From a virus, in the IMG/VR virus record IMGVR_UViG_3300037849_000254, positions 1-27,971 of that record: a stretch of 27,971 nt of DNA; one strand, given 5' to 3'. A program made the position numbers and the translations under genes. Every line of letters starts with the position of its first letter. Positions within the stretch are counted from its first letter, which is position 1. Of this stretch, positions 4,945-25,300 are shown in pieces. The notes under the pieces were generated by a model. The model searched no databases and was not told where the DNA came from. It saw only the letters and a program-made list of their open reading frames with translations.

Positions 4945-4970
4945 CTTAGCGGGTGAATACTTTGTGGTCC

Positions 4971-5052: not shown

Positions 5053-5301
5053 ATGCATTATCGCAACGGGCGTGAAGCAAAGAACGGCGACAAGATTGTG
5101 AGTCTCGGATACGGCGGGGGCACGATTGAGGCTTTCGGCGTACTGCACAGCGCAGTGCCGGGAAATGACTACTGCAACGGGGCGATTGCCCCGGTCCAGC
5201 CAACAAACGCGGGCGCGTGCCTTTGCGATTGCCTGCACGTTGACGATCTGGCTGCAATTCTTGCGGAAAAGGGTTTGGATAAGCGACCTGAAGGCAAGTA
5301 G
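5053..5301 (+). CDS. Small unknown phage protein in its own transcription cassette (82 aa)
   Basis: Starts at ATG 5053 after a purine-rich AAAAGAGGAAAAG Shine-Dalgarno stretch and ends with TAG. The N-terminus MHYRNGREAKNGDKIVSLGY and GGGTIEAFGVLHSAVPG suggest a small SH3-like or barrel fold of the kind seen in short phage proteins that begin with an .NG.EAk.GD pattern. Two close cysteines (ACLCDCLHVDD) near residues 56-60 could bind metal or form a disulfide; this is inference. I do not recognise a function. The gene is set between two intrinsic terminators (4971-5005 and 5301-5329), so it is probably transcribed separately from, or only by read-through with, the head and tail genes. Confidence 0.7.
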   Translation: MHYRNGREAKNGDKIVSLGYGGGTIEAFGVLHSAVPGNDYCNGAIAPVQPTNAGACLCDCLHVDDLAAILAEKGLDKRPEGK

Positions 5302-5329
5302 GGACTCAAGTATATAAGTCCCCTTTTTT
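5301..5329 (+). terminator. Intrinsic terminator after the small gene
   Basis: Stem GGGACT (5301-5306) and AGTCCC (5317-5322) with a 10-base AT-rich loop, then C and six T (5324-5329). The left arm begins in the last base of the TAG stop. It is weaker than the first terminator because the stem is only six pairs, so some read-through into the tail genes is expected. Confidence 0.65.
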
Positions 5330-5341
5330 GGAGGCTCATGA

Positions 5342-6094
5342 ATGGCGCTCAATTATTCGGCAGTTGGCATCGCAAACATGAGTCTTCAGCGCATCGGAGC
5401 GCGCGGGACCATCGCGTCGCTCACTGAGAACTCGCCGAACGCCATCAAGGTCAACACGGTCTGGAGCATGATACTGGCCGAGGTATTGTCGGAACGCGAT
5501 TGGAAATTTGCCAAGACCCGCATCCAGTTAGAGCAGAACGCCAACATGCCCGTGGGCGGGTACAAGTTCGCATACTCGCTGCCGGCCGATTTCCTGCGCC
5601 TGGTCAAGCCGCGCGAGAAGCCTGAAGAGCGCCGCATCGCCACCTGGTATTCAGGCTGGGGCGGATACGAGGGCGGATGGGGTAATCGCAACCGCGATTA
5701 TCCGGTGTGGCCGCGCGAGGTCGATCCTTACATCACCGAGACGGTGGCTGATACGTCGACGCCTCCCAACTATTCGAACAACCTGCTGACCAACTACCCC
5801 TACTGCAACACTTATCCGAGCCCCTGCCCCATCACGATCAATTACATCCGGCTCATCACAGATCTGACGCAGCTGCTGCCCGGCTTCGTGAACGCGCTGG
5901 CGTTCCGGCTTGCGGCTGAGGTCGCAGTCGCCATCACGGAAAGTCCCAAGAAAGCGGAGGACATGATGGGGATGTACATGGCGGCACTCAACGGCGCGCA
6001 GGCCCAGACGGAGTGCGATGATTACCTGAAAAATGAGGCGGGCGGAGATGAATGGGTCACGGCGGGCCGGTACTGGGGGCGGGGGTATCGGTGA
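5342..6094 (+). CDS. Tail tubular protein A-like head-tail adaptor (T7 gp11 type)
   Basis: Starts at ATG 5342 with GGAGG at 5330-5334 and 7 bases of spacing; 250 residues. This adaptor ring joins portal and tail nozzle. Family-like segments are IANMSLQRIGARGTIASLTE with following SPNAIKVNT at the N-terminus, the VLSERDWKFAKTRIQLEQ segment (vL....W.FA..r..L), GGYKFAYSLPADFLRLVKP (gy..aY.LPaD.lR) and, near residues 180-205, LLPGFVNALAFRLAAEVAVA, which is the LP..f..ALa..LA..la signature. A Trp/Tyr/Gly-rich stretch (YSGWGGYEGGWGNRNRDYP) lies in the middle and is longer than I would expect. Its stop overlaps the GTG start of the nozzle gene (GTGA), which suggests coupled translation. Confidence 0.85.
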   Translation: MALNYSAVGIANMSLQRIGARGTIASLTENSPNAIKVNTVWSMILAEVLSERDWKFAKTRIQLEQNANMPVGGYKFAYSLPADFLRLVKPREKPEERRIATWYSGWGGYEGGWGNRNRDYPVWPREVDPYITETVADTSTPPNYSNNLLTNYPYCNTYPSPCPITINYIRLITDLTQLLPGFVNALAFRLAAEVAVAITESPKKAEDMMGMYMAALNGAQAQTECDDYLKNEAGGDEWVTAGRYWGRGYR

Positions 6095-9000: not shown

Positions 9001-9288
9001 GACCAGCACCAGACCTCGAAGGGGAAAAAGCAGAAGTTCACCCGCGTCACGCTGTCGCTCTACGAGGCAGTGGGGGGACTTTATGGAACCGACTCGGCGC
9101 ATCTTTACGATATGAACTACGGGGCGAGTTCGGAGGGCAATCCGACCGCGTTGTTTACCGGCAACATCACACGCGACCTCGACGGAGAATGGGGCGACGA
9201 GGACTGTATACTCGTGGTGCATAACCAACCCTATCCCTTCACCTTGCGCGGGGTCGTGCCGCGTCTTTCCGTAGCCGAGGAGGGCTGA
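6091..9288 (+). CDS. Tail nozzle protein (T7 gp12/tail tubular B type), enlarged by surface modules
   Basis: I choose GTG 6091, which overlaps the previous TGA and follows a G-rich Shine-Dalgarno-like stretch; the ATG at 6052 would run inside the adaptor gene. The product has 1065 residues. Its N-terminus is diagnostic: LINNFNTGEVSGLIESRSDL then FGAACKTLENAVPLVEGGAK and KMPGTYC, as in podoviral nozzle proteins (NF.gGe.s.rl..r.Dl.ky..g...leN..p...Gg...rpGt). The C-terminus (KKQKFTRVTLSLYEAVGG, HNQPYPFTLRGVVPRLSV) also fits. T7 gp12 is shorter (794 aa); the excess includes a beta-module at residues about 66-127 and two FCCH-like modules at about 454-526 and 832-905. These probably point outward and may touch the cell surface. 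About 12 cysteines are present, more than in the internal proteins. Confidence 0.83.
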   Translation: MSPRANVLINNFNTGEVSGLIESRSDLAKFGAACKTLENAVPLVEGGAKKMPGTYCAGATALGGAVFTGSIAGSTLTVTSVSVGVIQVNASLYGVGVLPGAYIFAQLTGPTGGVGTYTVTPTSGMTLSEIMQTGSSGKSRLVPFQFSTTQGAILELSAGLIRVWEGATQGSWSLGIALQVPNEAGYLPATAYVANNVVLIGPTFAMGFYSGRPPFEFPDRTKGALYISAPYGTTNANTVPITISVNSADSLAVTITGVSPNQGLNIALSNATAAHNAASAIQTAIQALGALNTTFNNLVQLGQWTVTPDPIYYATPWIVAISGGESVLGNWINLSLAAQCVASNQNDQFPLIFGPAQPDWNSTYWELFNEANEPPIELATPYLESDLFNLDCSTQSADVLWILHPNYPPAVVERLSANSWQYSLSLPGQEPNEPAYRGTAAVVKTGYSALGQNISLISQATDCLVVLSSSSPTAPFSNGDRIYINTCAGMVELNEGEFIVSSITYGSVTVTVIDAAGTVTTITATAWSFLILDPETLAALNSSSYLQYQGGGFAVEVIALFNSVGNYPACGTLFQERFCVGGTDNNPTQINGSVEDDYPNFICDPNEDDYAIQFTLVSNQVNQLLNMLGTPNGLLIGTSGGVWIMSGANGSSISQTAVDASVQSTLGVSNLQPQLVNGSGVFVSRSARIVTFLVYDFVSNQWNNTDLTRLNRNITIGTSAATSGIAQTAFQIEPYPIFWAVRNDGQLIGLVFNTQDQVYAWFRVNLTPGIVESVAVISGQGQEDQVVVVVNRTINGVTQRYVEYFMPQELFHQLSNAFFVNSGLQFQGVGPFAITGITQANPAVVTAPGHTLQNGDFVAISGVLGMTQANTNPLLCWPVTGVTSNTFQLQGVDSTGWGAYMSGGTCQQVTNQVSGMSYLLGQNVVAVGDGQTIFQGTVAADTVNFGSYANNIAIGLPYQTTIQPMNPIIGDQHQTSKGKKQKFTRVTLSLYEAVGGLYGTDSAHLYDMNYGASSEGNPTALFTGNITRDLDGEWGDEDCILVVHNQPYPFTLRGVVPRLSVAEEG
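6286..6470 (+). repeat. Beta-module copy 2 in the nozzle protein
   Basis: Encodes GSIAGSTLTVTSVSVGVIQV, then GVLPGAYIFAQLTGPTGGVG and TYTVTPTSGMT. Spacing and key residues (LTVT, G, GV.PG, GTYTV) match the module in the cement protein at 4276-4474, although the DNA has diverged. Confidence 0.65.
7450..7670 (+). repeat. FCCH-like beta-module 1 in the nozzle protein
   Basis: Encodes an I..IS.A.....V.....APFSNGDRIYI...AGMVELN...F.V pattern. This is the common phage module that databases often match to the FCCH domain of ubiquitin-activating E1 enzymes (nGd.v.isg..GM.eLN). It occurs again at 8584-8805. Repeat at protein level only. Confidence 0.55.
8584..8805 (+). repeat. FCCH-like beta-module 2 in the nozzle protein
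   Basis: Encodes AITGITQANPAVVTAPGHTL, NGDFVAISGVLGMTQANTNP, then FQLQGVDSTGWGAYMSGGT. This is a close fit to the phage module I.gIt.A.PaVVT...H.l.nGD.v.isGv.GM...N...f.v..v....F.L.gvDSTg...Y.sGGt. Confidence 0.75.
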
Positions 9289-9291
9289 CAC

Positions 9292-9765
9292 ATGGGCAGT
9301 CTTTCCGGGTTGCAGCAAATCGGCTTAGGTTTCGCAGGCATGGGTGCGGTTAACTCCGCCGTGTCCGGCTTTGGCCAGTACGAGTCCGGTCAGCAGACGA
9401 AGCAGGCCTACGACTACGACGCGGCGGTCACGCTTCAGGAGATGCAGCAGAAGGAGCAGACCTCAGAGGCCAAGTACGACAACCTCGTCGGCCGCCAGGC
9501 GACCGCATACGCCGCGGCGGGCGTGGACATTGCCTCCGGGTCGCCGCTCCTAGTCATGGCCCACACAGCTGCGCAGAAAGGCAGCGAAGAGGCAAGCGAG
9601 AATGAGTCCGGCACTGAGCAAGCCGCACTGCAGCGATACTACGGTCGGGTGGCGGCTTTCAATGGGACCATCGGCGGAATCGGCACTTTCATTTCCGGGC
9701 TGGCCAAGGCTGGAGGAACTGCGGCCAGTAACATCCCCACACCTTCCCTGACGTTTGGAGTGTAG
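9292..9765 (+). CDS. Internal virion protein, T7 gp14-like
   Basis: Starts at ATG 9292, three bases after the nozzle stop, with AGGAGG upstream; 157 residues. The pattern fits gp14-type core or ejection proteins: a Gly/Ala-rich weakly hydrophobic N-terminal helix (LGFAGMGAVNSAVSGFGQYE), a long polar helix (YDYDAAVTLQEMQQKEQTSE), then the signature RQATAYAAAGVDIASGSPLL, and a second Gly-rich helix near the end. In T7 such proteins leave the head first and help to form the channel in the envelope. It has no cysteine. It ends with TAG, and the next gene starts with ATG directly after it and in the same frame. Confidence 0.75.
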   Translation: MGSLSGLQQIGLGFAGMGAVNSAVSGFGQYESGQQTKQAYDYDAAVTLQEMQQKEQTSEAKYDNLVGRQATAYAAAGVDIASGSPLLVMAHTAAQKGSEEASENESGTEQAALQRYYGRVAAFNGTIGGIGTFISGLAKAGGTAASNIPTPSLTFGV

Positions 9766-11508
9766 ATGTCCCCGTCTATTCCTACCGTCGTCGCTCCCAC
9801 CCTCACCCCGCCGCCGGAGATGAACCCCCGCATCGCTGGCAGCGTCGGCAACGCCATCTCGGGCGCGGCCGATCAGTTGGCCAGCGTCTCCGACTACGGC
9901 GCGCAGGTTGCTGAACGGATCAAGAAGGCGCAGGACGAAGGCATATTGCTCGGCGCCGAGAACTCAATCGCGGCCGATATGGAACAGGCGCACGCTGGCC
10001 TCGCTAACTGGACCGACTACACGCACGCAGACCAGATGAAACAAGATACGGCGGACAGGATCAGGGACAAATACAGCCAGCAATACGGCAACCGCCCCGA
10101 CCTCTGGCGCTACATCGAACCGTATCTTGGCAAGGAGCTGAATTCCTACAACGGCGTTGTCGATACCAAGGCCGCGCAGCTCACGGTCGAGTACAACAAA
10201 GGCGCGCTGCTCAACTCTCAACTACGCACGGAGAACGAGGCGGCGACAGAGCCTACACTCCCCGGCAAGGAGCAAATTTGGGGAATGCAGGACGACAAAA
10301 TAGACATGATGGTCAAGAACGGGACCATCAGGGCGGACGAGGGGGAAATCCAGAAGAAACTCCTGCGCTCCCGAACCATCTCCGCGGAAGTCGAGCGCGC
10401 GGCCAATCCCCTGAATGCCCCGTCGATCATGGACGACGAGCTGAAGCGGCTCAATGAATACGAGGGAAAAGGGTACGTTGATCCTAAGGAACTCGGGGCC
10501 ATGCGGGATCATCTGGCGACGGCGTACGAGCGGGCTGTCACAAAGCTGGATCGGGTGGACGTGTCTAAAGAAGGAGACGGCATCATTGCGGGGCTGATGA
10601 AAGACCCGACCGTGAAAGATCCAGAGACGGGCAAGACGGACTACCTGAAGGCTGCGCAGAAGGCGGATGAGAATCCCGACATTGGGACCAAGACCAAGAA
10701 GTACATCCGCGAAGAGTTAGAGCAGCGCGACACAGTTCAGAAGCACATTACAAACGAGAGCAATCAAAAGATTCTCGATGAGCTTGCACCACGTCTCTAC
10801 GACACCAAGAATCCGCTCACCTCGGCGGAAGTGAAAAAGCGTGCACTCTTGGCACCGAGCGAGCAGGGCTACATCCCACGCGAGGTTGAGTCGCACTTAC
10901 TGACCAGCCTGGGGCAGATGGAGCGCGAGAACCGTTCGCTGAACATCCAGGCTCGGCAGGAGGCCCGGCAGGAAGCCGAAGATAAGAGTAAAAATATGGC
11001 CTACGACCTCCTGATGAACTCGGGTTCGCTAATCGATCGCTCCGATCTCATCCCCTACATGCTTAAAGGTCTGAGCAAGGGTGATGCCCTGACGGTGTGG
11101 GAGAACAAGCAACTTGCCAAGGATGATGGCTGGCGGTCGGCGGTGGCGCTCATCAACGCATCCCCGCTCTACGACCACAACACCGACGAAGGCAGAACCA
11201 AACTTGCTACCGACACGCTCAACTTTGCCCATACGGTTCAAAACAAGAAGCTGACCGGCGGCCAAATCGTTACCGAGTTGAATAATGAACTGCACCCAAA
11301 GGAGGAGGCGCAGAGACAGCAACAGGTCAAACTCAGTCTGGATAACGTCCACTACTCGTGGTGGGATCTTCTCAGTGGCGGATCCAGCGAAGGCGCGAAG
11401 ATCGACTTTGTTCCTGACTCACAGGCACCTGCCCGGCCTAAGGGCGTCCCCGATGCTGCGCAGTGGAATAAGGAGGCGAAGCAATGGCAACTTCCGCCTC
11501 AGCAATAA
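9766..11508 (+). CDS. Internal virion protein, gp15-like position (580 aa)
   Basis: Starts at ATG 9766 immediately after the previous TAG, with GGAG five bases upstream. The protein is almost entirely helical, charged and free of cysteine, with long Lys/Glu/Gln helices (for example residues 40-90 and 380-420, ENRSLNIQARQEARQEAEDK). Position between gp14-like and gp16-like genes and overall composition suggest the middle component of the DNA-ejection complex, which in T7 (gp15) builds a tube across the periplasm. I see no catalytic motif. Sequence similarity to T7 gp15 itself is not evident to me, so the function is inferred from gene order and composition. The last 25 bases overlap the next gene. 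Confidence 0.65.
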   Translation: MSPSIPTVVAPTLTPPPEMNPRIAGSVGNAISGAADQLASVSDYGAQVAERIKKAQDEGILLGAENSIAADMEQAHAGLANWTDYTHADQMKQDTADRIRDKYSQQYGNRPDLWRYIEPYLGKELNSYNGVVDTKAAQLTVEYNKGALLNSQLRTENEAATEPTLPGKEQIWGMQDDKIDMMVKNGTIRADEGEIQKKLLRSRTISAEVERAANPLNAPSIMDDELKRLNEYEGKGYVDPKELGAMRDHLATAYERAVTKLDRVDVSKEGDGIIAGLMKDPTVKDPETGKTDYLKAAQKADENPDIGTKTKKYIREELEQRDTVQKHITNESNQKILDELAPRLYDTKNPLTSAEVKKRALLAPSEQGYIPREVESHLLTSLGQMERENRSLNIQARQEARQEAEDKSKNMAYDLLMNSGSLIDRSDLIPYMLKGLSKGDALTVWENKQLAKDDGWRSAVALINASPLYDHNTDEGRTKLATDTLNFAHTVQNKKLTGGQIVTELNNELHPKEEAQRQQQVKLSLDNVHYSWWDLLSGGSSEGAKIDFVPDSQAPARPKGVPDAAQWNKEAKQWQLPPQQ

Positions 11509-14500
11509 CTTCATGGGATGCCAGCGGCAAGCCGATCCAATCGGCCAATCCGGCGCCTGTTACGGCTTGGGATGTGCAGGGGCAACCTGTCCGCAATGAA
11601 GTGCCGACGCTGAACAAGGACGAGGCGCAACGGGCAAGCGACGCCCTGATTTACTCGAACCTTACCAACCAGCCACCGAGCTTCACCTACGAGAATCGGG
11701 ACTTGCTGAACAAGGACTTTGGAGAGCGCCTGGGTGCGTATGCGGAGGCGGGCTGGAAGGGATTGACGCAAGATTCGATCATCGGCGAATACCTGCGCGG
11801 CCAGATATCAGGGCCACTGGGGGACGAGGACGAAGTAAGCAAATTCATCGAAGGCTTTGGCCAGATGATCGGCGACTTGCCTGAGTATCTGATCGGCGGC
11901 GGACTAGGCCTTCTCGCCGGCGGAGCTGCGTGTTCCGTCGAGCTACCGGTTGTGGGCACCATCGGGCTCGGGGCTGTGGGCGCGGGGGCGGGAGGATTTG
12001 CGCTGACCGGCGGCTTGCGCCAATGGCTGATCGACAAATACAAGGGTAACGACATCTCAGCATGGGATGAAGTGATGGACGTGCTGAAGGCGACCGGCAA
12101 GAACGCCCTTACCGGCGTCGCGTTCGGGGTCGCTGGAGAAGCTGCGCCGCTGGCCGGCGGGGTTGTCGGCAAGTATTTAGGCCCGCGCGCCTACAAGGTT
12201 GCCGCTGAACTTGCGGCCATGACGACGGTCGGGAGTCTGGTCGAAGGCCAGGTCCCAAGCGCAGGGGACTTCGCCCGCAACGCCGCTCTCGTCGCGCTGA
12301 TGCACGTCACCATCGGTAACCTGCCGTTTGCGAAGAAAGCCGCGCCGGAGTTGCGAGAGAAGGCGATGGACCTCTACGCGCGTGAAGGCGTTCACCCTTC
12401 GGATGTGTCGTCAGAGGCGAGCAAGAGGACCGTGGATGCGCGCCCTACCGATAACCCGATGGAAATCCTGAACAAGATCGATAACGAACTTGCCGGGATC
12501 GCGGGAAAGACGCCGGAAGCCATTGCGGAGTCTGTCCCAAAAGCCGAGACCCCGGCACCGCAAGGGGAATCTCAGACCAGCATCAAGAATGAAACCACCG
12601 AAGCCGAGCGCGCCGAGCGCGGGCTGCCTGAAGTCGAAGTGGAGGCTCGGCAGGTTCCAGCATTCGAAGCGGGGAAGAAGGCTGTCGATGAGGGCCGGAT
12701 CGATCCGCGCGCTCTGGCAAAAGAGCTTGCAAACGATCCCCGCCCCCACACCGATGAAGAGGCTGCGGCGCTACTCTACGATCGAATGCGTCTGCAGAAC
12801 GAGCACGCGGTGGCGATGAACACCATAGAGGCCGCGCGGGCCGCGGGAGATGAAGCGGCGGAGGTTCGAGGCAAGGAGCACCTCAGGCGCGTAGAAGACG
12901 CCATCAACAACAACGACGAAGCAGCTCGGCGTTCCGGTACGGAGACAGGCCGGGCTCTCAACGCGCGCCGGATGATGATCAAGCAGGACTACTCGCTGGC
13001 AAATGTGCTGCAGCGAGCCCGCGCAGCGAGTCCCAACGGGGAGGTGACGCCAGAAGTGCGGAACACGCTTGAAGCCCTCACCAAGCAACTGGATGAGGCC
13101 AACAAGCGGCTGGACGATTATGAGGAGTCGAAGAAACAGACTGCGGCAGAGCAGACGGTTGAGAAGATCAAGCGCCAGGCCCGAGCAAGCACCCGGACCG
13201 CGACCAAAGTAGACCTGAAAACTGAGTACGATTCGCTCCTCAAGGACTTGAACGCCGAGCTACTTGGGAACCTGAGCGCCAATCCCATGCTCAACCCGAA
13301 GCTGTACGAGCTGTTCGGGAAACTGGCCGTCAACCGTATTCACTCCGGCCTGTTGACCATCGAGCAGATAGTGGACGACCTGCATCAGCAGTTACAGGAG
13401 CGCGGCATCTCGAAGCGCGAGATTAGAGATTACATTTCGCAGTACGGTAAGAAGATCGAACTGAGCAAGGATCAGGTCAAAGTCCAGTTGCGCGAGGCGC
13501 GAGCGCAGGGGCGGTTGCTGTCGGCTTTAGAGGATGCGGAGGCCGGAGAGCGACCAGAGAAGAGCGGTCTGCAGCGCGGGCCGGAGTCACAGCGAGTCAA
13601 GGAGCTGCGTCAACAGGTAAGCGATGCCATGCGGGCTGCTGGGCTAAAGGAAACCCCCGAGCAAACTCCAGAATCGCGTCTGAACGCTTACAAGAAGACG
13701 CTCGAAACCAAGATAAAGACTCTCCAAAAGCAACTCGACACCGGAGACTATACCCAGCCAACTCGCAGGCAGACTGTTCTAGACGCGCAGGCTGAAGGTT
13801 TGAAGGCGCAGGCGGAAAAGCTCAAGAGCCAGGTAGACGACGCGATCTACAAGCAGAAACTTGAGGCCCGCACCCCGCTCGAAAAGGGCGCGGCCGTATT
13901 CCAGAAGTGGCGCCGGGCGGTTCTGCTGTCCAGCGTCAATACATTGGGGAAGCTGACTACCGCTGCCATGCTGCGGTTCGGGACCACGCCTATTGAGGAG
14001 CTTGTAGGCGGGGTCCTGTCGCACATTCCCGGCGTGTCTGATATCGCTGAGAAAGCTCCGCGTGAGGGCGGAGGCCTCAACATCTCAGCGGAAGCCAAGG
14101 CGTTCGGCCAGTTCTTTGAGAAGGCAACGCGCGACGACATCGTAGAAGCGCTCAGGACGGGCAAAACCTCACTTGATTATCTCTACGGGAAAAAGAGCAC
14201 ACTTCCCCCTGAGGCACTGGATTTTTTCGGCCATCTCCACGGTGCTCTCAAGGTGTTGCCTAAGCGGGCTGAGTTCTTCCGCTCGCTCGAAAAGCGGGCG
14301 CAGTGGGCGCTCGACAATCACCTGGACATCAACGACCCCAAGGTGCAGGCGACTATGGCGGCGGATGCGTATATCGACGCGAACCGCGCCATCTTCATGC
14401 AGGAGAACTTCATCAATACGGGCTTCAGGATGCTGATGAACTACTTCCATTCGCAGGGGTTGAGCGGCAAGGCTGCGGAATTCATGATTCAGACCGTGCT

Positions 14501-15221
14501 ACCGATCGTGAAGGTGCCAACAAACATCGTCGCGGAGACCGGCACGTTTACGTTCGGCACGGTGACAGGCAGCATTGACGCGCTGCGCGTGCTGGTCAAG
14601 ACAGATGGACTCAAGAATCTGACCGGCCATGAGGCTGACAACATTATGCGGTCGCTCAAAAAGGGAAGCATCGGGCTTGCTGTGCTGGCCATGGGCTACT
14701 ATGCAGGAACATCGTCGGGATTCATTCAGTCGACTGGGTTCTATCAGCCCGGAGACGAGAAGAAAGAGAAGAAGCCGGAGACGCTGACCATCGGCGGTGT
14801 GGATCTCCCGCCTTGGCTGCAGCACACTCCAGTGGGCTTGGTCTTCGAGATGGGGGCGACCATGCGTCGAGTAAACGACGCATACACCATGAAGGGCAAG
14901 AGTGGCGGGTTCGTTGGCGGGGCAACTTCGGCTGGGCTGGGTGCGGCGAAAAAGATTCCTTTTCTTGAGCAGTCGACGCGGCTGGCGGAAGCCACACGCA
15001 CGTCGGATTCTGCGGGCTTGTTTCTTGATGATCTGATTCAGAGCCTCATCATTCCGCCCGACGTGCGCAAGCTGGCGGAGATGACGGACGATGGGACGAA
15101 GCGCAAGCCGACTGATCTTAAGGAAACGATTGAGAATGCTGTACCGGGCTTGCGTGAGAATGTACCGGTGGGCGGACAGAAGCGCGAGAAGAAGTTCTCA
15201 ATCAGAGGAGCAGCCCGCTAA
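11484..15221 (+). CDS. Large internal virion/DNA-ejection protein, gp16-like (1245 aa)
   Basis: Starts at ATG 11484 after AAGGAGG, overlapping the previous gene by 25 bases. The length is close to T7 gp16 (1318 aa). Residues about 125-190 form a Gly/Ala-rich hydrophobic region (IGGGLGLLAGGAACSVELPV, GLGAVGAGAGGFALTGGL), with another at about 212-235, suited to membrane insertion. Residues about 420-780 are polar helices and likely coiled coil. Near residues 965-1020, FRMLMNYFHSQGLSG and TVLPIVKVPTNIVAETG resemble the l..ivPFv.TP.Ni segment of large polyvalent/ejection proteins, followed by a hydrophobic helix at about 1058-1075 (IGLAVLAMGYYAGTSSGF). I do not see the lytic-transglycosylase active site that T7 gp16 carries at its N-terminus. 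It has a single cysteine (AACSVE). Confidence 0.75.
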   Translation: MATSASAITSWDASGKPIQSANPAPVTAWDVQGQPVRNEVPTLNKDEAQRASDALIYSNLTNQPPSFTYENRDLLNKDFGERLGAYAEAGWKGLTQDSIIGEYLRGQISGPLGDEDEVSKFIEGFGQMIGDLPEYLIGGGLGLLAGGAACSVELPVVGTIGLGAVGAGAGGFALTGGLRQWLIDKYKGNDISAWDEVMDVLKATGKNALTGVAFGVAGEAAPLAGGVVGKYLGPRAYKVAAELAAMTTVGSLVEGQVPSAGDFARNAALVALMHVTIGNLPFAKKAAPELREKAMDLYAREGVHPSDVSSEASKRTVDARPTDNPMEILNKIDNELAGIAGKTPEAIAESVPKAETPAPQGESQTSIKNETTEAERAERGLPEVEVEARQVPAFEAGKKAVDEGRIDPRALAKELANDPRPHTDEEAAALLYDRMRLQNEHAVAMNTIEAARAAGDEAAEVRGKEHLRRVEDAINNNDEAARRSGTETGRALNARRMMIKQDYSLANVLQRARAASPNGEVTPEVRNTLEALTKQLDEANKRLDDYEESKKQTAAEQTVEKIKRQARASTRTATKVDLKTEYDSLLKDLNAELLGNLSANPMLNPKLYELFGKLAVNRIHSGLLTIEQIVDDLHQQLQERGISKREIRDYISQYGKKIELSKDQVKVQLREARAQGRLLSALEDAEAGERPEKSGLQRGPESQRVKELRQQVSDAMRAAGLKETPEQTPESRLNAYKKTLETKIKTLQKQLDTGDYTQPTRRQTVLDAQAEGLKAQAEKLKSQVDDAIYKQKLEARTPLEKGAAVFQKWRRAVLLSSVNTLGKLTTAAMLRFGTTPIEELVGGVLSHIPGVSDIAEKAPREGGGLNISAEAKAFGQFFEKATRDDIVEALRTGKTSLDYLYGKKSTLPPEALDFFGHLHGALKVLPKRAEFFRSLEKRAQWALDNHLDINDPKVQATMAADAYIDANRAIFMQENFINTGFRMLMNYFHSQGLSGKAAEFMIQTVLPIVKVPTNIVAETGTFTFGTVTGSIDALRVLVKTDGLKNLTGHEADNIMRSLKKGSIGLAVLAMGYYAGTSSGFIQSTGFYQPGDEKKEKKPETLTIGGVDLPPWLQHTPVGLVFEMGATMRRVNDAYTMKGKSGGFVGGATSAGLGAAKKIPFLEQSTRLAEATRTSDSAGLFLDDLIQSLIIPPDVRKLAEMTDDGTKRKPTDLKETIENAVPGLRENVPVGGQKREKKFSIRGAAR

Positions 15222-15325
15222 TGTGCATCAGGCGACGGAAGATCGACAATCTATGGCCGCTATGGGAATTAGGTCTACTTGATGACGCTTGGCCCCCTGA
15301 AGAGGTCGGGCACTGCAATGACTGA
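15221..15325 (+). CDS. Possible 34-aa mini-gene coupling the ejection protein to the ATP-grasp gene
   Basis: The ATG shares its A with the TAA of the preceding gene (TAATG), and the TGA at 15323-15325 lies just inside the next gene, which starts at 15318. GAGGAG at 15205-15210 lies 10 bases upstream. The product begins MCIRRRKIDNLWPLWELG and ends EEVGHCND: basic first, acidic later, with two Trp and two Cys. This fills an otherwise empty 96-base gap exactly and with overlaps at both ends, which is what tightly packed phage operons do. The peptide has no known function to me. It could instead be a chance reading frame. Confidence 0.45.
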   Translation: MCIRRRKIDNLWPLWELGLLDDAWPPEEVGHCND

Positions 15326-16574
15326 GTTTAAGACCAAAAGCGTGGCAATCGTCGACAACGGCATGTTTGCGGAACTCGCGCGCACGTTGTCCGCCTCCTT
15401 CGGCGAAGTCTTCTACACGTCCCCGTGGGTCGCAGACTATCCATCCTCCTACAACACCGAGCAAGGAGAGGGGTTCGCGGACTTTGAGCGCGTGCCGGAT
15501 ATCTGGGGCATCGTCGACGATGTGGACCTGTTTGTCTTCACGGATCTCCATCAAGGGCCGCTGCAGGAATACCTGGCCGAGAAGGGTAAGCGTGTCTGGG
15601 GTTCCCGCACCGGTGAACAGATCGAAGAGGATCGCGTTGACGCCAAAGCCCATTTTGAAACGCTCGGCATCCCGCAGGCGCCGTACGAAGTCGTCAAGGG
15701 CATGGACGCGCTGCGGCGCTACATCAAGAGCCGCGGAAACGATAAACTCTGGATCAAGATCAGCCTGACGCGCAACGATACCGAGACATTCTGCGTTGAG
15801 GGATACGAGCAGGCCAAGAATCGGCTGGACGACTTTCAGGCCAAGTTTGGGCCTATGTCGGAGTACCGGGAGTTTGTGGTCGAGGATCACCTGCCCGACA
15901 CGCTGGACCTCGCCATCGATACCTACTCGATCGACGGCCAGTATCCCTCGCGTGCGCTTCTGGGGACAGAACAGAAGGACGAGGGTTATATCTGTGCCGT
16001 CAAGGACTGGAAGCAGTTGCCACCCAACCTTGTCGACATCTACACCAAGCTCGCGCCCACGCTCGAGCAGTACCAATATCGGCAATTCCTCTCGCTCGAG
16101 TCGCGCGTGGCTGAAAAGAAGATCTGGCTGGGCGATCCGTGCTGTCGTGCCGGCTCCCCGCCGTTCGAACTTGAATTAAACATGCTCAAGAACCTGCCGG
16201 AGATCCTGTGGGAGGGCGCGGACGGGAAACTGATTGAGCCGGATTACGCCGGTAAATACGGATTTGAGATACTGGTGCAAAGCCCATGGGTCAATGAGCA
16301 TCCCTTGCTGGTCGAATTCCCCGAGAAGTACCGTGACTCGATCAAGTTCCGGCGGGCGACGCAGTATCCAGACGGGCTCTGGATCATGCCCCAGAAAGAC
16401 TCGCCGGTGTTCGCTGCGATAGTTACCTTCGGGGATTCCCCGGATGCCTGCTTTGCGGAGGCGGAGGAGATTGCGAAGGAGATCCACGGTTTCAAAGTGG
16501 ACGCCTTTGTCGGCAGCATGGAAGGCTTAAAGAAAAACCTCAAGGAATTTAGCAAATGGGGGATACGATTCTAA
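15318..16574 (+). CDS. ATP-grasp-like ligase (PurD-related architecture)
   Basis: I choose ATG 15318 ([15 protein letters not shown]) because AAGAGG lies about 12 bases upstream; the ATG at 15282 has no such site. The product has 418 residues. It begins with a small alpha/beta domain (residues 1-95, containing [20 protein letters not shown]) followed by a [20 protein letters not shown] helix and [11 protein letters not shown], matching the pre-ATP-grasp to ATP-grasp junction of PurD-type enzymes. KLWIKIS would hold the nucleotide-binding lysine strand and [20 protein letters not shown] the domain's acidic strand. The metal-binding end (PurD: N.R.GDPE) appears as [17 protein letters not shown], so substrate and metal binding may differ. 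It would join a carboxylate to an amine using ATP; the substrate is unknown. It is unusual between ejection and fibre genes. Confidence 0.6.
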
Positions 16575-16584: not shown

Positions 16585-19500
16585 ATGAAACGCTGGATTC
16601 TCTTGATGCCGTTGGTTTTGCTACTGAATGCGATGGCTCACGCCCAGGTCACGGGGACGGCCTCGACGGCGACGTTCAACTGCACTGCATCGACCGGGCC
16701 GTTCCCTTTCAGGTTCCCGGCGCACGATGCGGCCGCTCTTCAGGTGATCGAGATCGCTCCCGGTTCGCTTCCGGGCGTGATGACCATCGTTACCGGATGG
16801 ACCGCGACGCCGGTGAACAACTCGTTTGCCAATGGCGGAAGCATTACCCTTGTGACCCCGTGCCCGTCGGGATACACGCTCACGATCGCGCGCGTGACAG
16901 AACAGACGCAACTCACTCAGTACACGCCCAACATGCCGGCGCTGTACGCTAATTTCCAGAACAATATCGATCAGCTGACGACGAATACGCAGGATGCCTC
17001 GCGCGCGCTGCAGGTGCAGGTGGGGCAGCTCTCTGGGGGCGGTTCCGCGAGCGTGACGCAGACTCCACTCGGCCAATTCCTCAATCTCACATTCCCATCG
17101 GCGGGGTTGCCTGGCACGAACCCCACGTTTAACGGCATCCTCTCCGGCCCGAAGATCTCCCTCTCCGGCGACGGCCTCGTGACCACGGGCAACCTCTTCA
17201 ACACCGTCACGGCCTTTCCCAGTATCTACAACGCCCCGCACACGCTGAATCTCTACTCCGACTTCATTACCGGCAGCCAAGATAACTACATCCTGGAGGG
17301 CACGCAGATCACCGAAAACGACCTGACGGATGGCTGGACGCCGGGCACCATTTTTAATCAAATAGTCGCAATGCACATGAACAGCAGCGGCGACACGATC
17401 GCGCGTCTTGTCGAGGTGCTGTGCAAGGGCAGTAGTTCGGTCCAGAACGAAGGCTGCAAGGACAGCCACATTGTCACGACCGAGTTTCCGACCATCTTCC
17501 AGGGCACGCTTAACTCGATCCCGCTGTGCGCAGGAGGGAACTGCACCTTCAGCATGACGCAGACGCAGGGCTATAGCTCGACCGTCAACGGAGTCACGTA
17601 TCTGGGGCCCGGCGCGAAAATGCACCTTATCGATCTCACGAATGCAATCACGGCCGGCTACATCACGGGATACTCCGGCTTCGGCTATTCCAACTTCACC
17701 GCCTCCGGGACGGCATTCTCGACGCCCAACGGCACCAGCGCCATAACGACCTCGACAACCAGCATCGGCAGCACCACCGCGGCGACCGTGAATGGCACCA
17801 TTACTCTCACCAGCCCATCGGGATTTGCGGTGTCGGGAACCAATCTCATCTGCCTCTTTGATCCCACCACCGCCGATTACGTCTGGACGTGCGCCCACAT
17901 CACGAACCTGACCGGCAGCGTGGCGACGATTGATTACATCCCGGAGGGGTACCTGTTCCCGGCAGGGAGCACGGTTTCGCAGGGCGGATTGGCCGGCTGG
18001 GGATTCAGTCTCGACTGGGATTCGCACTGCGCGGCGGTGTCGCTCGGTTGCCCCGGCGGTCCGAACGGCTATCCGCTTCCGCCTGACAACGCATACAACG
18101 GCATCGTCCGCATGGACTATCCAGTGGTCGGCAACACCTCAGCGACCAGCATTGAAGTCTACGGCTTTGAGGGATCGCAGACGCCTTCGAGCGGCGGGAC
18201 ATCGACCACTGGCGTCTATCATTTGTTCCCCCAGGTCATCGTCTACGACCCCTATAACTACACGACCAAGAAGCTCGACGCGAGCGCAGTTCAGACCAGC
18301 CCGATCAACCAGGGCATGACGTTCTCCGCGAGCGACGTGATTGAGCAGCCGAACTACTTCTCATTGCGGGCGACTGCGCAGACGATCTACGCATGGAAGG
18401 CGCAGGGATCGCCGAACGCGCTCCCGACTGGGATTAGCCTTACTCTTGGCGGCAATTACCGCGATGGCTCGCAAGCAATGCCGATCTACAATTTCAACAA
18501 TCCCTGCCTCTATGCCGGAATTCCTTCCGGCGTGCAGCCCCTCATGCCGTGGCCCAACAATTCTGCGGGCGCATCGGTGGGATGCTCCGGAAGCGCGGGG
18601 GTCTACGGCACTGGACAGGGCCAATACGGCGCGCCGCAGGGGGTGCGATTCGGCGGGGCTGTTTCGAGCGGCGTCACGCTGGGCCTCCCGGTCCTCTCGG
18701 TCGGCTACAACGGCATCGGCAAAGCGGCGCTGTTTGTGGGCGCTGATCTCACGACCGCGATGGCGAATCAGTGGGCCACTGCTTCCCCGGTGCTGGGACA
18801 CGTCAACAACCTGGGCGGCGCAACTCCTGGAGAGGATTTCGTCAACTATTACCCGGCTCAGGACTTGTGGGATGTGACCGCTGGGTCCACCGATCCCTAC
18901 GGAACCGGCGCGACTCACTACTATTTCAGCCCCACGGCGCTGACGGTGCCGAATTTGGTCATCTCTGGAACCTGCACCGGATGCGGCGCGAGCCCGTTCA
19001 ATTACCTTGTGAATCAGAGCTCGACCCTGCAGCCGATTCAGATCAGCACCGTGGCGTCGGGGTCTGATTATCTGTGGGTCAATTCTTTCGGCGGGAGTGC
19101 AGGCTGGACTTTCCAGAACAACACCGCAGCCAACACTTGGACCTCTTCGCTTTTCAACATGGACGCTTCCTATGACGCCATATTCAGTGGGTGCGCTCCC
19201 GGCCAGACAAGCGTGCCCGCGTCGGGCCCTTGCCGGGTCCTGTTCGGCATCCTGGGCAACGGCACTAATTACACCAACAATCGCGGCTATTATCTGAGTG
19301 TTCCGGTTGAGCCAGTTGGCAATCCTACGGTCACGCTGCCGCTTGCGACAGCGAATGCCTATATCTTTGCACTGCCCACCGGCGCGTCGGCCAATGCGAT
19401 TCCGACCGCAGGCACGGCTGGCTTCGGCGGCACATCGTCCTGCTCCGACAACGGCACGATCTTCGCCTGCAGTGAGCCCGTGCAAGCGCCGTCCTTTGTT

Positions 19501-19776
19501 GCCACCGGCGGCACGCCCACAACGGTAAATTGCTCCACATCGGGCACGGCAATCTTCCTGCAATCCCTGACCGGAACCAATGACAAGAAGGTGGTGGTCA
19601 CGTTTGCGGCGTGTCTGGGGACGGCCTCCTACACGTTCCCAACCGCGTTCACGGTGCAGCCGTCTGTATTCGCCAGCAACGATGTGGCGGCAACGCTGGT
19701 AACTTCGCGGTCCACCACGGCCATCACGGTCACCGGGACGACTTCGACGGGAACACTATTTTTGGAAGGGTATTAG
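16585..19776 (+). CDS. Tail fibre with T7 gp17-like N-terminal domain behind a signal peptide (1063 aa)
   Basis: Starts at ATG 16585 with GGAGAG upstream, 10 bases after the ATP-grasp stop. Residues 1-20 form a Sec-type signal peptide (Lys-Arg, then a Leu-rich core, then AMAHA before Q21). Residues about 27-145 resemble the virion-binding head of T7-type fibres: [40 protein letters not shown] and [20 protein letters not shown], matching the f.FpF.f....l.V...GG.v.l..p...G..ltI.R.t...Q...y....f.a...e...D pattern. The rest is beta-rich, Gly/Ser/Thr/Asn-rich and not recognised. The C-terminus ends with a strand-rich knob ([18 protein letters not shown]). About 20 cysteines are present. A signal peptide in front of a virion-attached fibre domain is unexpected. 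The stop is TAG. Confidence 0.78.
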
Positions 19777-19779: not shown

Positions 19780-22383
19780 ATGAAAAGATTCTTGCTCTTC
19801 TTGCTGTTCGCCTCTCCGCTCGCTGCCCAGATCAGCAATCCGGGCGTGACGTATGTCGGTTCTGCCCCATCAGGCGCGTGCTCACAGGCTCCTCCGGTGC
19901 AGGTGCTCAACTCATCGGGCGCGATTTACACGTGCGACAACGGGACGTGGGCGGTGCAGGGAGGCGGTGGAGGCTCGGGCACGGTAACCAGCGTTGCACT
20001 TACCGGCAGCGCGAACCTCTTTTCTTCGACGCCGGGGACCGCAGTCACGACAGCAGGAAACCTGAATCTCGACTCGCAACTCCTCGCGCAAGCAGCGAAC
20101 TGCATCCTCGCTGGCCCAGCTTCAGGGAGCGCCGCAGCACCAACTTGCCGCGCTTTGGTTTCCGGCGACATCCCAAACAACGCAGCGAACACAACCGGGA
20201 CAGCGGGGAACGTGACTGCAACCAGCAACTCTACCCTGACCACGCTCTCCGCATTATCGCTTCCTTATTCGCAGGTGACTGGAGGCCCGAGTGGAACGGT
20301 GACATCGTTCTCGGCAGGTAACCTATCGCCACTGTTCACTTCTTCGGTAGCGACTTCGACCACGACCCCCGCTCTCACGTTCGCGCTTTCAAACGCTGCG
20401 CAAAACTCCGTCTTAGCGGGTCCGGCCACTGGAGGGGCGGGAGCGCCAAGCTACCAGACCGCTCCAACAATTAGCGCGGCAAATATGACGAATTTTCCGG
20501 CGTCTGCCGCATATACTCCGCTAACATACCTCGCTTATGGCGATTCAATCACCATCGCCACAAACGGCGCGGTTACTTATCCCAACAACTCATATGTAGC
20601 TCGTATCGCAGCTCAACTCGGCATCCCTGGCGGATCAGTCACAAATCAGGCGGTGAGCGGCGCAATGGCTGGCGACGTTATGAGTCTTCAGGTTCTTCCC
20701 AACGACGCTCCAGCGGAAACGGCACAGCAACCCTTGCGGACTCTGCTCATCAGCACAAACGAGGCTAGCATCAAAGGTGCTGGTGCTTACGAAGCGACGT
20801 TCAACACTATCGATCAGGCTATCTTAGCTTGGGAGTCGATTGCCGCTCCATATAAGGTGATGGGCTCGACGGTGGTTGGTTCAACCACGGGGACCTGCGC
20901 GCAGGACAATACTTATGCGAATGCCCTAGGCGTGCTCTGTACATCGAATGCGGCTACCGCGCCGTTTAGTATCACTACTACGGGCGGACCAATTTACATC
21001 TGGTATCGCTGCATCGACAGTGACGCGGGGACGTGGACTTACGCCATCGACGGCGGATCAACGGTTGCCGTGACTACCGCTCTCACCACGGCGATTGCGA
21101 CAACCAATGGCACCACAGCTTCTGTGTGTTTGATCCGGGTGCCTGCGAGCGCCGCTGCCCACACGCTCTCTTTTGTAAAAACAAGCACGGGCGGAAACAT
21201 GGGGATCATTGGGGTCGGGACCGTCTCAAATTCTCTTGTTAATTCTCAGCCCTACATCATTGCCGGAGACACGCCTTCAGAATTGAATGGTGCTGCTGCG
21301 TCTGCGGTCGCGGCATATCGTGCGGACATCGTTGCGAACGTTGCCCTGCTTGCGGGGGATGGATTAAATATCCAATTAAAATACATCAGCAAGTATCTGA
21401 TCGCCACGACCGCCGCATCCGATATGTTCAATACTCTTCACCCTAACGATCAAGGCCACGGTGAAATGGCGGCTGCGTTTCTAGGGGGCTCCGGCTTGTT
21501 TCCGGCAACATCTGGGGCTAGTCCCTATTACAATGCGCAGAACGCTTCTTATGTTCCGGGCGCGGGGAATCAGGTAGTCAGTATCGCCGCTACCAGCGGG
21601 ACCGTCACGCTAAATGTTCAAGCATCGGGTACTGTTTACTGGATTGTCAACAGAAGTAGTTCCACGAATCTTACGCTGGCTGCGGGTTCGGGAGTTACCA
21701 TAAACGGTGCTGCTACCATACCGCCGCTCGGGGTGGCAGTTGCTATCTCTACAGGCTCCTCTTGGGCGATTGGTCCAGCTTCCAATGCAATCACTACCTT
21801 ATATCAAGGGCCAAGCGCCGGATATACCATTGCGCCGGGAAATCAAGTTACGGCGATGAACTGTATCGCTAACTGCACACTGGCTATTGGCACCGGAACA
21901 TACGGGCAAGTTGAGTATGTTGCGAACAGGAGTGCCACTTATACAGTAACCGTCTCGGGGACGATAAGCTCCGGTCCCACCAGCATTCCTCCATTGGGCG
22001 GTGCGATCTATGTTAGTTCTAATTCTGCTTGGTGGGGCGTAGCTGTTGGTGCGCAGAATGGAATCTACACTCCCAACGGAACGCCGACTTACACAGCGGG
22101 AACCAACGTCACATCCGTGGGGTGCGCCTCTGGTTATACCTGCACGAACACTCGCGGCGAACTCACCATCGTCGGCGGAACAGCCACGACAGGAACGATT
22201 GCCACCCTCAACTTCTCAGCCACGCTAACCGCCGCGCCGGGCCTGTGCATAGTGACTCAAGCGGGCGGTGCAAGCCTGTTCGGCATCGGCCACGGCACGC
22301 CCGCCACGACGGGATTCACCATCACCGCCGGAGTCAGCGTCGCCACATCGACCGTCACTGTGGACTACTCATGCCAGCCCTAA
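19780..22383 (+). CDS. Tail fibre/spike with SGNH (GDSL) hydrolase domain and signal peptide (867 aa)
   Basis: Starts at ATG 19780 with GGAAGG upstream. Residues 1-16 are a short signal peptide (MKRFLLFLLFASPLAA) before Q17. Residues about 67-240 carry two fibre-type repeats (LLAQAANCILAGPASGSAAA; ALSNAAQNSVLAGPATGGAG). An SGNH hydrolase domain follows: YGDSIT with the expected catalytic Ser at about 254-258, SGAMAGDV at about 294-301, LISTNEAS with the oxyanion Asn at about 322-329, and FNTLHPNDQGH at about 551-561 with the catalytic His. The usual Asp three residues before that His is Asn here. A beta-rich insert (ATAPFSITTTGGPIYIWYRC, then TWTYAIDGGSTVAVTT) lies between the blocks. The C-terminal part has a duplicated beta-unit and a terminal knob with Cys pairs. 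The likely role is deacetylation of surface polysaccharide. Confidence 0.75.
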   Translation: MKRFLLFLLFASPLAAQISNPGVTYVGSAPSGACSQAPPVQVLNSSGAIYTCDNGTWAVQGGGGGSGTVTSVALTGSANLFSSTPGTAVTTAGNLNLDSQLLAQAANCILAGPASGSAAAPTCRALVSGDIPNNAANTTGTAGNVTATSNSTLTTLSALSLPYSQVTGGPSGTVTSFSAGNLSPLFTSSVATSTTTPALTFALSNAAQNSVLAGPATGGAGAPSYQTAPTISAANMTNFPASAAYTPLTYLAYGDSITIATNGAVTYPNNSYVARIAAQLGIPGGSVTNQAVSGAMAGDVMSLQVLPNDAPAETAQQPLRTLLISTNEASIKGAGAYEATFNTIDQAILAWESIAAPYKVMGSTVVGSTTGTCAQDNTYANALGVLCTSNAATAPFSITTTGGPIYIWYRCIDSDAGTWTYAIDGGSTVAVTTALTTAIATTNGTTASVCLIRVPASAAAHTLSFVKTSTGGNMGIIGVGTVSNSLVNSQPYIIAGDTPSELNGAAASAVAAYRADIVANVALLAGDGLNIQLKYISKYLIATTAASDMFNTLHPNDQGHGEMAAAFLGGSGLFPATSGASPYYNAQNASYVPGAGNQVVSIAATSGTVTLNVQASGTVYWIVNRSSSTNLTLAAGSGVTINGAATIPPLGVAVAISTGSSWAIGPASNAITTLYQGPSAGYTIAPGNQVTAMNCIANCTLAIGTGTYGQVEYVANRSATYTVTVSGTISSGPTSIPPLGGAIYVSSNSAWWGVAVGAQNGIYTPNGTPTYTAGTNVTSVGCASGYTCTNTRGELTIVGGTATTGTIATLNFSATLTAAPGLCIVTQAGGASLFGIGHGTPATTGFTITAGVSVATSTVTVDYSCQP
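19978..20498 (+). repeat. Two fibre-type repeats in the SGNH protein
   Basis: Both units begin GTVTS and run through an LL or LF strand and A..N.(I/V)LAGPA.G.....P to a short linker ending in P.N or MTNF. The first unit is at about 19978-20182 and the second at about 20293-20498. This pattern is common in fibres and supports a virion-associated role. Confidence 0.65.
21555..22044 (+). repeat. Duplicated beta-unit in the C-terminal part of the SGNH protein
   Basis: Two units share GNQV, a strand ending in (Y/V).(V/A)NRS, then T.S/AG, an IPPLG(V/G)A strand and a S..W.(I/V) end. Unit one spans about 21555-21775 and unit two about 21830-22044. The DNA has diverged, so the duplication is old. Confidence 0.6.
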
Positions 22384-25300
22384 AATGGCTCGCCCTCATC
22401 CTGCTCGCTCTGCCTCTTGCCGCGCAGGAGCCGACCATCACGCTCAATGGCACCGCGTACACCATGCAGCCGCACCCGCGCGTGTTCCTCAATGCGGCAC
22501 TGAATGCGCGAGTGGCTTATTCTGGCGGACTGGCACCGAAGGCGGTCTCAAGCAATCCGGCGTGGGTAGCCATGACGACGCGAGCCGGGACAGCTTGCTC
22601 CATCTATCCCGATCCCTCGACCACGCACAACGACGATTCAAATTATGTGGACGGAACCATTGCCGAGATGTACGCGCAGTGGTGGTATTCGGATAACAGC
22701 CAGACCGCGTGCTTGGCGAAGGCGCTCTACCTCGTCAACAACATGCAGCAGTATGTGCCGTTTGTCTGCAACGAAGGCGTCATGGACTGCATCCACGGCG
22801 GCAACGGCTACTGGGTGGGAAGCTACGGCCCAGCGTACTATATGCCCAACTGGGTCTTCGCATACGAGCTGGTGCGGGGCCAGATGACGACGCTTCAGCA
22901 GCAGACGTTTGCCGACAAGTGGCTGAACGATAAAGCGGCATGGGGAGGAATCAATGGCTCGCCAAGCACCGGCTGCACGAATCCCACTCTGGTTGGAACA
23001 ACATCTGTCTCGATTAACTCATCAGGAGTTGTTACAGCTAGTGCGCCATATTTTGGTTCAGGGCAAACACTTCAAGTTGGAGACTGGATCGCCTCCAGCT
23101 CTAACGACTTCACCGCCGTCATCGCCTCCGTCTCGTCCTCCACGGTCGCCACGATAGAGCAGGATCAGTGGAGCAATTTCTCCGGCTACAGTGGCACGCT
23201 CTATAGTCGCCGCGGCGGGTGGTCGGCGGGTGATTGCGGATGGTTCTGGGTGGCAAAGCACGACTGGTACGCGCCCGCGTCGATCATCGGATCTTCTGTC
23301 TATCCATCAGGCGCAGGCAACGGCGGCGTGAACGGGACCGGCAGCTTCAACCTGGTGCTCGCCCAGACCTATGGACCCATGGCTGCGCTGCTGTCGCTGG
23401 CTGACGATGATGTGAATTTCTCCAGCCGCACCTCGGTCGAGATCACGGCCCTCTATAACTACTGGCACACCACGACTTGGACCGGCCTGAACGAGTTCAA
23501 CTACACCGGGTTCACGCCGACAGGATCGGTTTACGGGATCACGCGCGCCTGGGCGATGTGGCCCCTGACGGCGTTCAGTGTGGTCAATTCGGTCGTGAGT
23601 CCGCCTCCGCTGCTGAACGGCCTGTGGGCGAAGAACATGACGCACCACACGTATCTGGCGACCTTCCCGTCATGCCCCGCGCAGGAGTGGGAGTTCGGGC
23701 AGAGCTTCTCGCTGAATTCGAGCTACAACAGCTATCTGCCGAATGCGATCTATATCCCGTCCCTGATTACGATGTTTCAGGGAACGAATGAAGGCCAGTA
23801 TCTGAACTGGTGGTCACAAAATCTCTGGCAGACTTGCCCGAATGGGGGTTATTCTGGCAACACACCGGGTACAAACCTGATGTGGAATTCATCGACCTTG
23901 GGGAGCAATCAGTATGGCGGGACAAGTCAAGCGTGGGCGTATCTTTATATGGACTCGGCTTACGCGACTAACTCTGCACTTCCTACTGGGAGTGTCGATA
24001 ACTGTAGCGATGCTGGGTGTTCTGGGGCTGTTGCCACATCTGTTGCGCTTCCTATGGCAGGTCTTATTTCTCGTACCGGCTATAGTTCTATTACCGACAC
24101 CCTCACAGAATTCCTAGCGATCTCCGCCCCGTTCAACGACCACACCACGCCCTATAACGGGATCGGGCAGCCGGGCGATATCCGCATCTGGAAGGGTGCG
24201 GCGCTGCTGGGCGATGATTACACGACATGGAACAATGGCGGCATCAGCGCCAGCGATATCTCGATCGGGTCAGACTCCTATTTCCCGTCAGCGCCTGTCT
24301 ACACGGTACTGATGCCCGCCGGAGCCAATGACCCAAGTAACCGGTACACGTATGCCTTGGTGGACATGACCCAAAGTTACTCGTCTTCGGCGCATGTGAC
24401 GGGGGCGGAGCGATATTTTGTCCACTTCAAGAAGCCTGGCACGCAAGACTTCGTCGTGGTCTATGATTACGTCAAGACATCGACTGCCGAGCAGGTCATT
24501 CAGTATTCGCACTATCCTCAACCGACGCATACCACGCTGACCTGCCCTACCGTTGCTGAATCCTTCCCCGGAACAGGACACTCAGATGCCACACAGCTCC
24601 TCACCGCATTCCTCCAGCCAGCAGGAAGCAACACCACTTACTGCTACAGCAACAACACGAACGGTACTTACGCTGGAGGGAACGGAAATACATTTCGAGT
24701 CTCTAATTGCGGGAGTGTCACCGGAAGTTCTTGCGCAGCAACTAGCACTTACGAGTCTGCGACAGTGCACATGCCGGTTGCAGGTAGCGGCAACTCAATG
24801 CCGAGCACTGAAACTCTCGCAACTATTGACGGAAATCACCGAGGAATTGAAATCGATGGAAGCTCTTCTAAAGTTGCTGTTTTCCCCATCGGCATCAGCG
24901 AGCCCTGCTTCACCAGCGCCACCTACACCACCGCCGTGCCCTCAACAGCCCAGCAGCTTGTCGCCGGACTCTGCACCGGAAGTTATAATGTCACGGTGGG
25001 AGGAAGCCCGGTTGTCTCTGGGGTTGCAGTATCAGCAGGGAACAACAGCCTCTACTTCGAATACGGGTCAGGCGCAGTTGCGGTCTCGCTCGCGTCAGCA
25101 ACCCTAACCCTTCCCTCCCCCAGCTGCCCCGCCGGAACGCAATACGTCGCATATGGAGGCTGCACTCTGGCAGCTTCCGGCGGCACCCCGCCTTACACCT
25201 ACGCATGGGTCAATCCCACCACCAGCTACGCATCCATCCCTGAGGGCCTGAGCGTCAACGCATCGACGGGGGCAATCTCGGGCACGGTCTACGGGCAGGG

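Follow-up and report, generated by a model that had tools for sequence, protein, structure and literature searches.

A 27,971-base virus contig, hereafter the window (the whole stretch of DNA that was analyzed), carries among its virion genes an apparently PurD-derived gene for a predicted ATP-grasp protein, and in related phages this gene goes together with a short motif near the C-terminus of a neighboring virion protein. We favor the reading that the product is an active amide or peptide ligase that acts on this tail, or is recruited by it, sometimes with an amine made by the phage, and we give this reading slightly less than an even chance. A sequence-only reading of the same DNA had raised the tagging of virion proteins as an idea, which the pairing of motif and gene now appears to support circumstantially. 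Ejection proteins travel out of the virion through the cell envelope and do their work in the new host, and we know of no enzyme dedicated to modifying them. A literature search that covered mainly papers outside subscription found none that describes this family or the modification of ejection proteins by an ATP-grasp enzyme.

Results

The gene occupies positions 15318 to 16574 of the + strand, with an ATG start codon at 15318, a stop codon at 16572-16574 and a product of 418 aa; the mechanically called reading frame opens earlier, at TTG 15279. Scans of IMG/VR returned 77 related loci, all viral, at 25-84% identity. The nearest relative, L002, is 84% identical over 418 aa, and the two genes differ at 54, 30 and 227 sites at codon positions 1, 2 and 3, as expected under purifying selection. 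This pattern, together with relatives down to 25% identity in the 77 viral loci, confirms that 15318-16574 is a real gene. Searches with tblastn found no relative in named phages (one match at E 0.1) or in plasmids (one match at E 4). Two conserved-peptide scans of 84,980 species genomes gave 81 and 6 stretches, none of them a relative, and since they used short peptide patterns, remote cellular relatives could be missed. Within the searches made, uncultivated viruses are the only known source of the family.

By itself, the window protein falls below every family threshold that we applied, with a best Pfam score of 11.9 bits (PF01071; cut-off 27), a best NCBIfam score of 16.6 bits (purD, TIGR00877; cut-off 288) and no match in PHROGs. 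Scanning 48 members singly against Pfam and PHROGs gave only scattered matches with E > 0.005. The profile search against PurD that had been suggested for this protein succeeds at the level of the family, as a profile from an alignment of 48 chosen members matches solved PurD structures (2yw2, E 4.2e-9), though the purD cut-off is not reached by the single sequence. With the same alignment, AlphaFold2 returned a model with a pLDDT of 94.3 and a pTM of 0.91, compared with 79.1 and 0.81 when 13 close members only were supplied. The top Foldseek match for the model is PurD (2yw2, E 4.6e-20). In VIA-align, PurD chains take the first 13 places (Z 32.2 to 27.3), the best being 3lp8 at Z 32.2 and 3.1 Å over 374 residues; the next family is PurT, at Z 25.3, and the remaining families score no higher. 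Matches in BFVD were remote ATP-grasp proteins only (best E 1.5e-10, TM 0.47 by query). The window protein is thus predicted to have a full ATP-grasp fold with a preceding pre-ATP-grasp domain, in agreement with the sequence-only reading, which had named both parts.

Conservation was read from an alignment of 73 sequences, 65 of them distinct, from which identical copies and L074, whose frame is broken by stops, were left out; L003, L005, L012 and L016 also lay outside it. Residues invariant in 65/65 sequences are Q83, G90, K91, R92, V93, G95, S96, R97, E103, R106, K147, R152, E156, D201, E218, K220, E261, D273, R277, P281, N292, G300 and G303, while D13 and P358, covered by 64 sequences, do not vary among these either. 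These positions, more than 20 in number, are for the most part polar and located in active-site motifs, and they are held while identity drops to 25%. The family signature GKRVWGSR (residues 90-97; 15585-15608, + strand) varies only at W94, which is kept in 58/65. At 15633-15635 (+), the invariant R106 replaces the lysine of the PurD motif LEGSK, which we take to bind an ATP phosphate. The invariant ATP-grasp lysine is K147 (WIKIS; 15756-15758, +), and after it the alignment places S-x-T-R152-x-D-T-E156 where PurD has its glycine-rich loop. An extra invariant acid, E261 (16098-16100, +), is a probable metal ligand, a role that we presume from ATP-grasp enzymes in general.

The sequence-only reading had singled out residues 272-282 as an altered metal-binding end. 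We aligned this region with a bacterial-type PurD, that of L088, as reference and with two intermediate phage proteins. At D273-P281 (DPCCRAGSP; 16134-16160, +) the family reads D-x-[C/A]-x-R-x-G-S-P where PurD reads E-x-N-x-R-x-G-D-P, so that D273 stands for the metal Glu, C/A275 for the Asn and S280 for the Asp, with R277 retained. The alteration is therefore real; it is also conservative, in that D273 and R277 are invariant and E261 adds a further acid. Given the invariance of R106, K147, E261, D273 and R277, we interpret the altered end as a fixed substitution and not as decay. Nor have homologues lost the nucleotide-binding residues, as the nucleotide- and metal-site positions are invariant across the 65 distinct sequences. 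By analogy with characterized ATP-grasp enzymes, we infer a role of these residues in binding ATP or metal, and by its motifs the enzyme looks catalytically intact. Catalysis could be weak or altered, given that the PurD Asn and the glycine-rich loop are lost.

Two PurD motifs are missing. The N-terminal G-x-G-G-R-E loop (G-S-G-G-R-E-type) gives way to D-N-G-x-F/Y, and R-F-G-D-P-E, which we take to be the PurD signature, gives way to R-x-G-S-P-x. With these motifs gone and the purD score far below its cut-off, the window protein is, as judged from its sequence, not PurD, and the suggestion of a nucleotide-metabolism enzyme is not favored by either score or motifs. Descent from the PurD lineage, with changed substrates, is the best explanation for the family.

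The window gene follows a run of virion genes. Upstream lie a head-tail connector gene (690-1712; phrog_332), a major head protein (3123-4184; phrog_212), a tail protein (5342-6094; phrog_394), a second tail protein (6052-9288, +; phrog_376, E 1.2e-136) whose cluster, c1, occurs in 31 loci, and a 580-aa protein (9766-11508, +) of cluster c2, which accompanies the ATP-grasp gene in related phages (25 loci). Directly upstream is a gene for a large virion or ejection-type protein of 1245 aa in the gp16 position (11484-15221, +; cluster c6). Because its product has no match in Pfam and no useful one in PHROGs, the label "gp16-like" reflects position and size; the C-terminal parts of this protein and of its counterpart in L013 have no match in named phages. 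Directly downstream is a tail-fibre-like gene (16585-19776, +) with a signal-peptide-like N-terminus, and the family profile of the domain after the signal-like stretch matches solved tail-spike N-termini (E 1.4e-5). The placement between ejection and fibre genes proposed from the sequence alone thus stands as to position and to the fibre-like gene, and its ejection side is a matter of position and size.

The fibre region has features of its own. The genes at 16585-19776 and 19780-22383, and likewise those downstream in L002-L028, have N-termini resembling Sec signal peptides. By a pattern devised for this analysis, such N-termini occur in 80/103 downstream and 2/135 upstream genes of the window clade (28 loci, some of them near-copies), and in 27/315 downstream and 12/301 upstream genes of the other loci. 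Exported tail fibres would be very unusual. The gene at 19780-22383 also has a weak GDSL-lipase match, below cut-off, and the very long product of 22368-27197, a putative fibre or adhesin, contains divergent InlB B-repeats (PF18998).

In assignable contexts the ATP-grasp gene sits among late virion genes, and the late position proposed for the window holds in most relatives. Of the 69 loci with at least 2 kb of upstream DNA, 55 have on the same strand a gene of 580 aa or more whose end lies no further than 1.3 kb upstream of the ATP-grasp gene, compared with 34/147 when the same measure was applied to other 300-560-aa genes in these loci. The large upstream genes include gp16-type proteins (clusters c4, c6 and c12), a protein that is portal-like by eye and matches no PHROG (c14), an internal virion protein with an endolysin domain (L065) and a MuF-like protein (L032). 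L072/L073, L058 and others deviate from this arrangement. Two neighbors were recorded in passing: the upstream gene at L077:2099-5602 encodes a terminase large subunit with an intein carrying a LAGLIDADG domain, and L072:7054-8154, near the ligase gene on a 167-kb viral contig, encodes a TnpB/Cas12f1-like protein.

The large upstream gene often has a recurrent ending, [K/R]-[F/Y]-[S/T]-[I/L]. In the window this motif tied to the ATP-grasp gene is carried by the C-terminal tail GGQKREKKFSIRGAAR of the 11484-15221 product (15171-15218, +), and the ending reads KREKKFSIRGAAR; elsewhere we find RKTKRFSILK (L010), NRFTILK (L035), RRKRYSAFSE (L052) and RRFSILK (L033). Among 583 non-redundant genes of 150 aa or more, a strict form, [KR].?[FY][ST][ILAVS] within the last 16 residues, is present in 26, where 2.6 are expected from the internal rate. 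In 19 of these cases the carrier is the large gene that precedes the ATP-grasp gene by one to three genes, and the other seven, for example c316 of L032, do not fit the tail idea. The carriers include proteins with no detectable mutual similarity (gp16-type c4/c6/c12, c14, portal-MuF c96, c105, c119 and c321); c4 and c6 have a common N-terminal part, and their last 600 residues are not in common. The C-termini of clusters c1, c2, c3 and c10 have no such tail.

For a control, we retrieved 41 loci with the C-terminal part of c4; 22 of these have the ATP-grasp gene, 15 lack it in at least 2.4 kb read downstream, and 4 were assigned to neither class. The motif was widened to [K/R]-[F/Y]-[S/T/H]-[I/L] in the last 20 residues. 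It occurs in 14/22 gp16-type homologues with the gene and in 0/15 without (Fisher 7e-5, in a test that, like those that follow, ignores phylogeny). Removing near-copies left 12/18 against 0/14 (Fisher 1.1e-4), and the strict motif, read by eye, gave 11/22 against 0/15. Since the motif was defined after the first set had been seen, the fairest count comes from contigs not used in defining it, where it is 3/5 against 0/15 (Fisher 0.009). The motif is absent beside the gene in 8/22 gp16-type proteins. It is also missing from the c6 homologues of L055, L056, L057, L062 and L067, and where the ATP-grasp gene lies by terminase (L029, L030, L031 and L077).

In a tree of 35 gp16-type proteins, L127/L128, which have both gene and tail, branch well apart from the other carriers, and their nearest neighbors have neither; L110, again with both, groups weakly with L108/L122, which have neither. 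Shine-Dalgarno coding was considered as a cause of the basic tail and rejected, as the tail in the window stops roughly 100 bases short of the start codon and the tagged gene in L033 is three genes away.

Two small genes are candidate partners in some relatives. The first, c5, encodes a SpeD-like protein of about 120 aa and is found in 20/78 sequences, always adjacent to the ATP-grasp gene. Its best E-value against PF02675 (AdoMet_dc) is 1.4e-5, and of five proteins scanned, with 25.9, 23.6, 17.8 and 16.2 bits and no match, one passes the cut-off of 25 bits. A c5 profile reached SpeD in the PDB only at E 0.7; the best PDB matches, to viral nucleoproteins (E 0.005), were taken as chance. The catalytic residues of Thermotoga maritima SpeD include the pyruvoyl residue S63, H68 and C83, as given in passages of PMC10407285. 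All 15 aligned c5 proteins keep Ser and Cys at the S63/C83 spacing (+0/+20), and all 15 have Asp at the place of His68. We regard the SpeD-like assignment of c5 as moderate. On a tree of 62 family members this label requires at least four changes, so partner genes appear to come and go.

The second gene, c7, encodes an HxxxE protein of about 124 aa and lies adjacent to the ATP-grasp gene or one gene off in 22/78 sequences. A D, the HxxxE, an H and an E are invariant, and it has no Pfam match above cut-off, no PHROG below E 0.01 and no PDB match. The window has neither c5 nor c7. A search of 50 records (the window and 49 of the 77 loci, a set that leaves out most known carriers) found no c5 in the window and 46 of the 49 others, and c7 in 6 records. 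Stretches with c7 and no ATP-grasp gene in the available DNA are L083:3134-3517, just before a 612-aa gene that is terminase-like by eye, and L085:4992-5381. One locus found through c7, L084, has in a row a gp16-type gene, a second PurD-like ATP-grasp (GARS_A, E 1.7e-11), c7 and a clear SpeD (E 3.2e-12); the diverged ATP-grasp, c7 and SpeD, directly after the gp16-type gene, span 3466-5808. Among the neighbors given to Pfam or PHROGs, which were some of the total, no amidoligase or glutamine amidotransferase was recognized.

Discussion

By analogy with other ATP-grasp ligases, the enzyme would spend ATP on activating a carboxylate to an acyl-phosphate, which it would then join to an amine. Its association with the tail suggests that it may modify the tail, or dock there to modify a virion protein. 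The late virion position and the absence of the motif where the ligase gene is absent make the tail the most likely target. In some relatives the adjoining SpeD-like gene may make the amine that is attached; in phages without it, such as that of the window, an amine or amino acid of the host would be used. This supply of the attached group is the weakest step of the proposal. We also consider, with more doubt, a wider system confined to phages, in which the ligase, in some cases with a SpeD-like decarboxylase and the HxxxE protein as a helper metalloprotein, puts an amine or amino acid onto a dedicated C-terminal tail that each phage has on a single virion protein. Unrelated ejection, portal and MuF-type proteins would have received this tail by grafting, with selection acting on the modification and not on its carrier. 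If the link holds, the family would pass from unannotated sequence, with no Pfam match above cut-off and no PHROG, to a modification system whose enzyme and peptide tail are both defined and which mass spectrometry could test.

The alternatives follow in falling order of probability. The foremost, which we judge unlikely though worth weighing, is an auxiliary ligase that links an amine, for example a polyamine, with an amino acid or another small carboxylate and so serves to package DNA or take over the host, its location among virion genes only setting late expression. This would suit the small-molecule substrates of the relatives PurD, PurT and PurK and the SpeD-like gene adjacent in 20/78 sequences, since phage SpeD homologues are described in parts of PMC10407285 and PMC9992855 as ornithine or arginine decarboxylases. 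However, it leaves the association of tail motif and gene unexplained, and no other polyamine gene was recognized among the partly annotated neighbors. Less probable again is that the motif acts independently of the enzyme as a signal in virion assembly, processing or ejection, and that motif and gene merely occupy the same type of module. A basic motif near the C-terminus does resemble a docking or processing signal, and the 8/22 gp16-type proteins that lack it beside the ligase gene fit such independence. What argues against this reading is that the motif recurs in proteins without detectable mutual similarity and is absent from all 15 gp16 homologues of phages without the gene.

That the protein is a catalytically dead ATP-grasp fold, serving as a scaffold or minor virion protein, strikes us as quite improbable: the altered metal-binding end, the missing glycine-rich loop and the location among structural genes would all be compatible with it, but not the invariance of more than 20 mostly polar active-site residues at identities down to 25%. 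A phage GAR synthetase boosting purine synthesis is scarcely credible, as PurD is the closest fold and family but the score of 16.6 bits against 288 and the loss of the N-terminal loop, the glycine-rich loop and the RFGDPE-type motif all speak against it.

Comparison with known systems

One parallel to the ligase reading is in phages of the LUZ24/phiEco32 group, where an ATP-grasp gene lies beside amidoligase and amidotransferase genes according to portions of PMC3890496 and PMC6209634; in UFV-P2, the amidoligase, glutamine amidotransferase and ATP-grasp of this cassette are ORFs 23, 25 and 28 (PMC3890496, in part). Such cassettes likewise pair ATP-grasp with amide chemistry in a phage operon. 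As described there, however, their ATP-grasp is a protein of 291 aa encoded among early genes on the strand opposite the virion genes, and its partner genes were not recognized among the partly scanned neighbors of the window-family gene. Other phage ATP-grasp enzymes are described, in passages of PMC4431377 and PMC7824862, as R2K or RNA ligases. R2K shares with our reading a predicted protein modification by ATP-grasp chemistry, but by its description there it forms a divergent clade whose catalytic residues are its own; the window family groups with PurD by profile and fold. The SpeD homologues noted above resemble c5 in Ser/Cys spacing and differ from it at His68, which is Asp in c5; the term "ATP-grasp" does not occur in the main text of either paper that describes them.

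The analysis also found the PurD-like ATP-grasps of L084 and of MW202796.1 (L087), a circular phage sequence recovered from a spring metagenome in which the unannotated gene at 8001-9335 ends a run of ejection-type genes. Both belong to the same fold family and directly follow ejection-type genes, as in the window; L084 has in addition the HxxxE protein and SpeD, and its GARS_A domain is recognizable. They differ from the window family in being only about 20-25% identical to it, in an E-F-T-x-R-P-G metal end and in having no tail motif upstream, the gp16 of L084 included. PurD itself (3lp8, 2yw2, 2xcl; TIGR00877) agrees with the window protein across residues 5-409 in fold and in the order of domains, and shares the ATP-grasp lysine and acid-x-x-x-Arg-x-Gly-x-Pro at the metal end, with a matching E-x-K in the family where PurD has D-x-K. 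Identity to PurD is about 15%; the family has replaced the substrate-site N-terminal loop, the glycine-rich loop and RFGDPE, and unlike PurD it is, within the searches made, a virus-only family that sits in a late virion operon.
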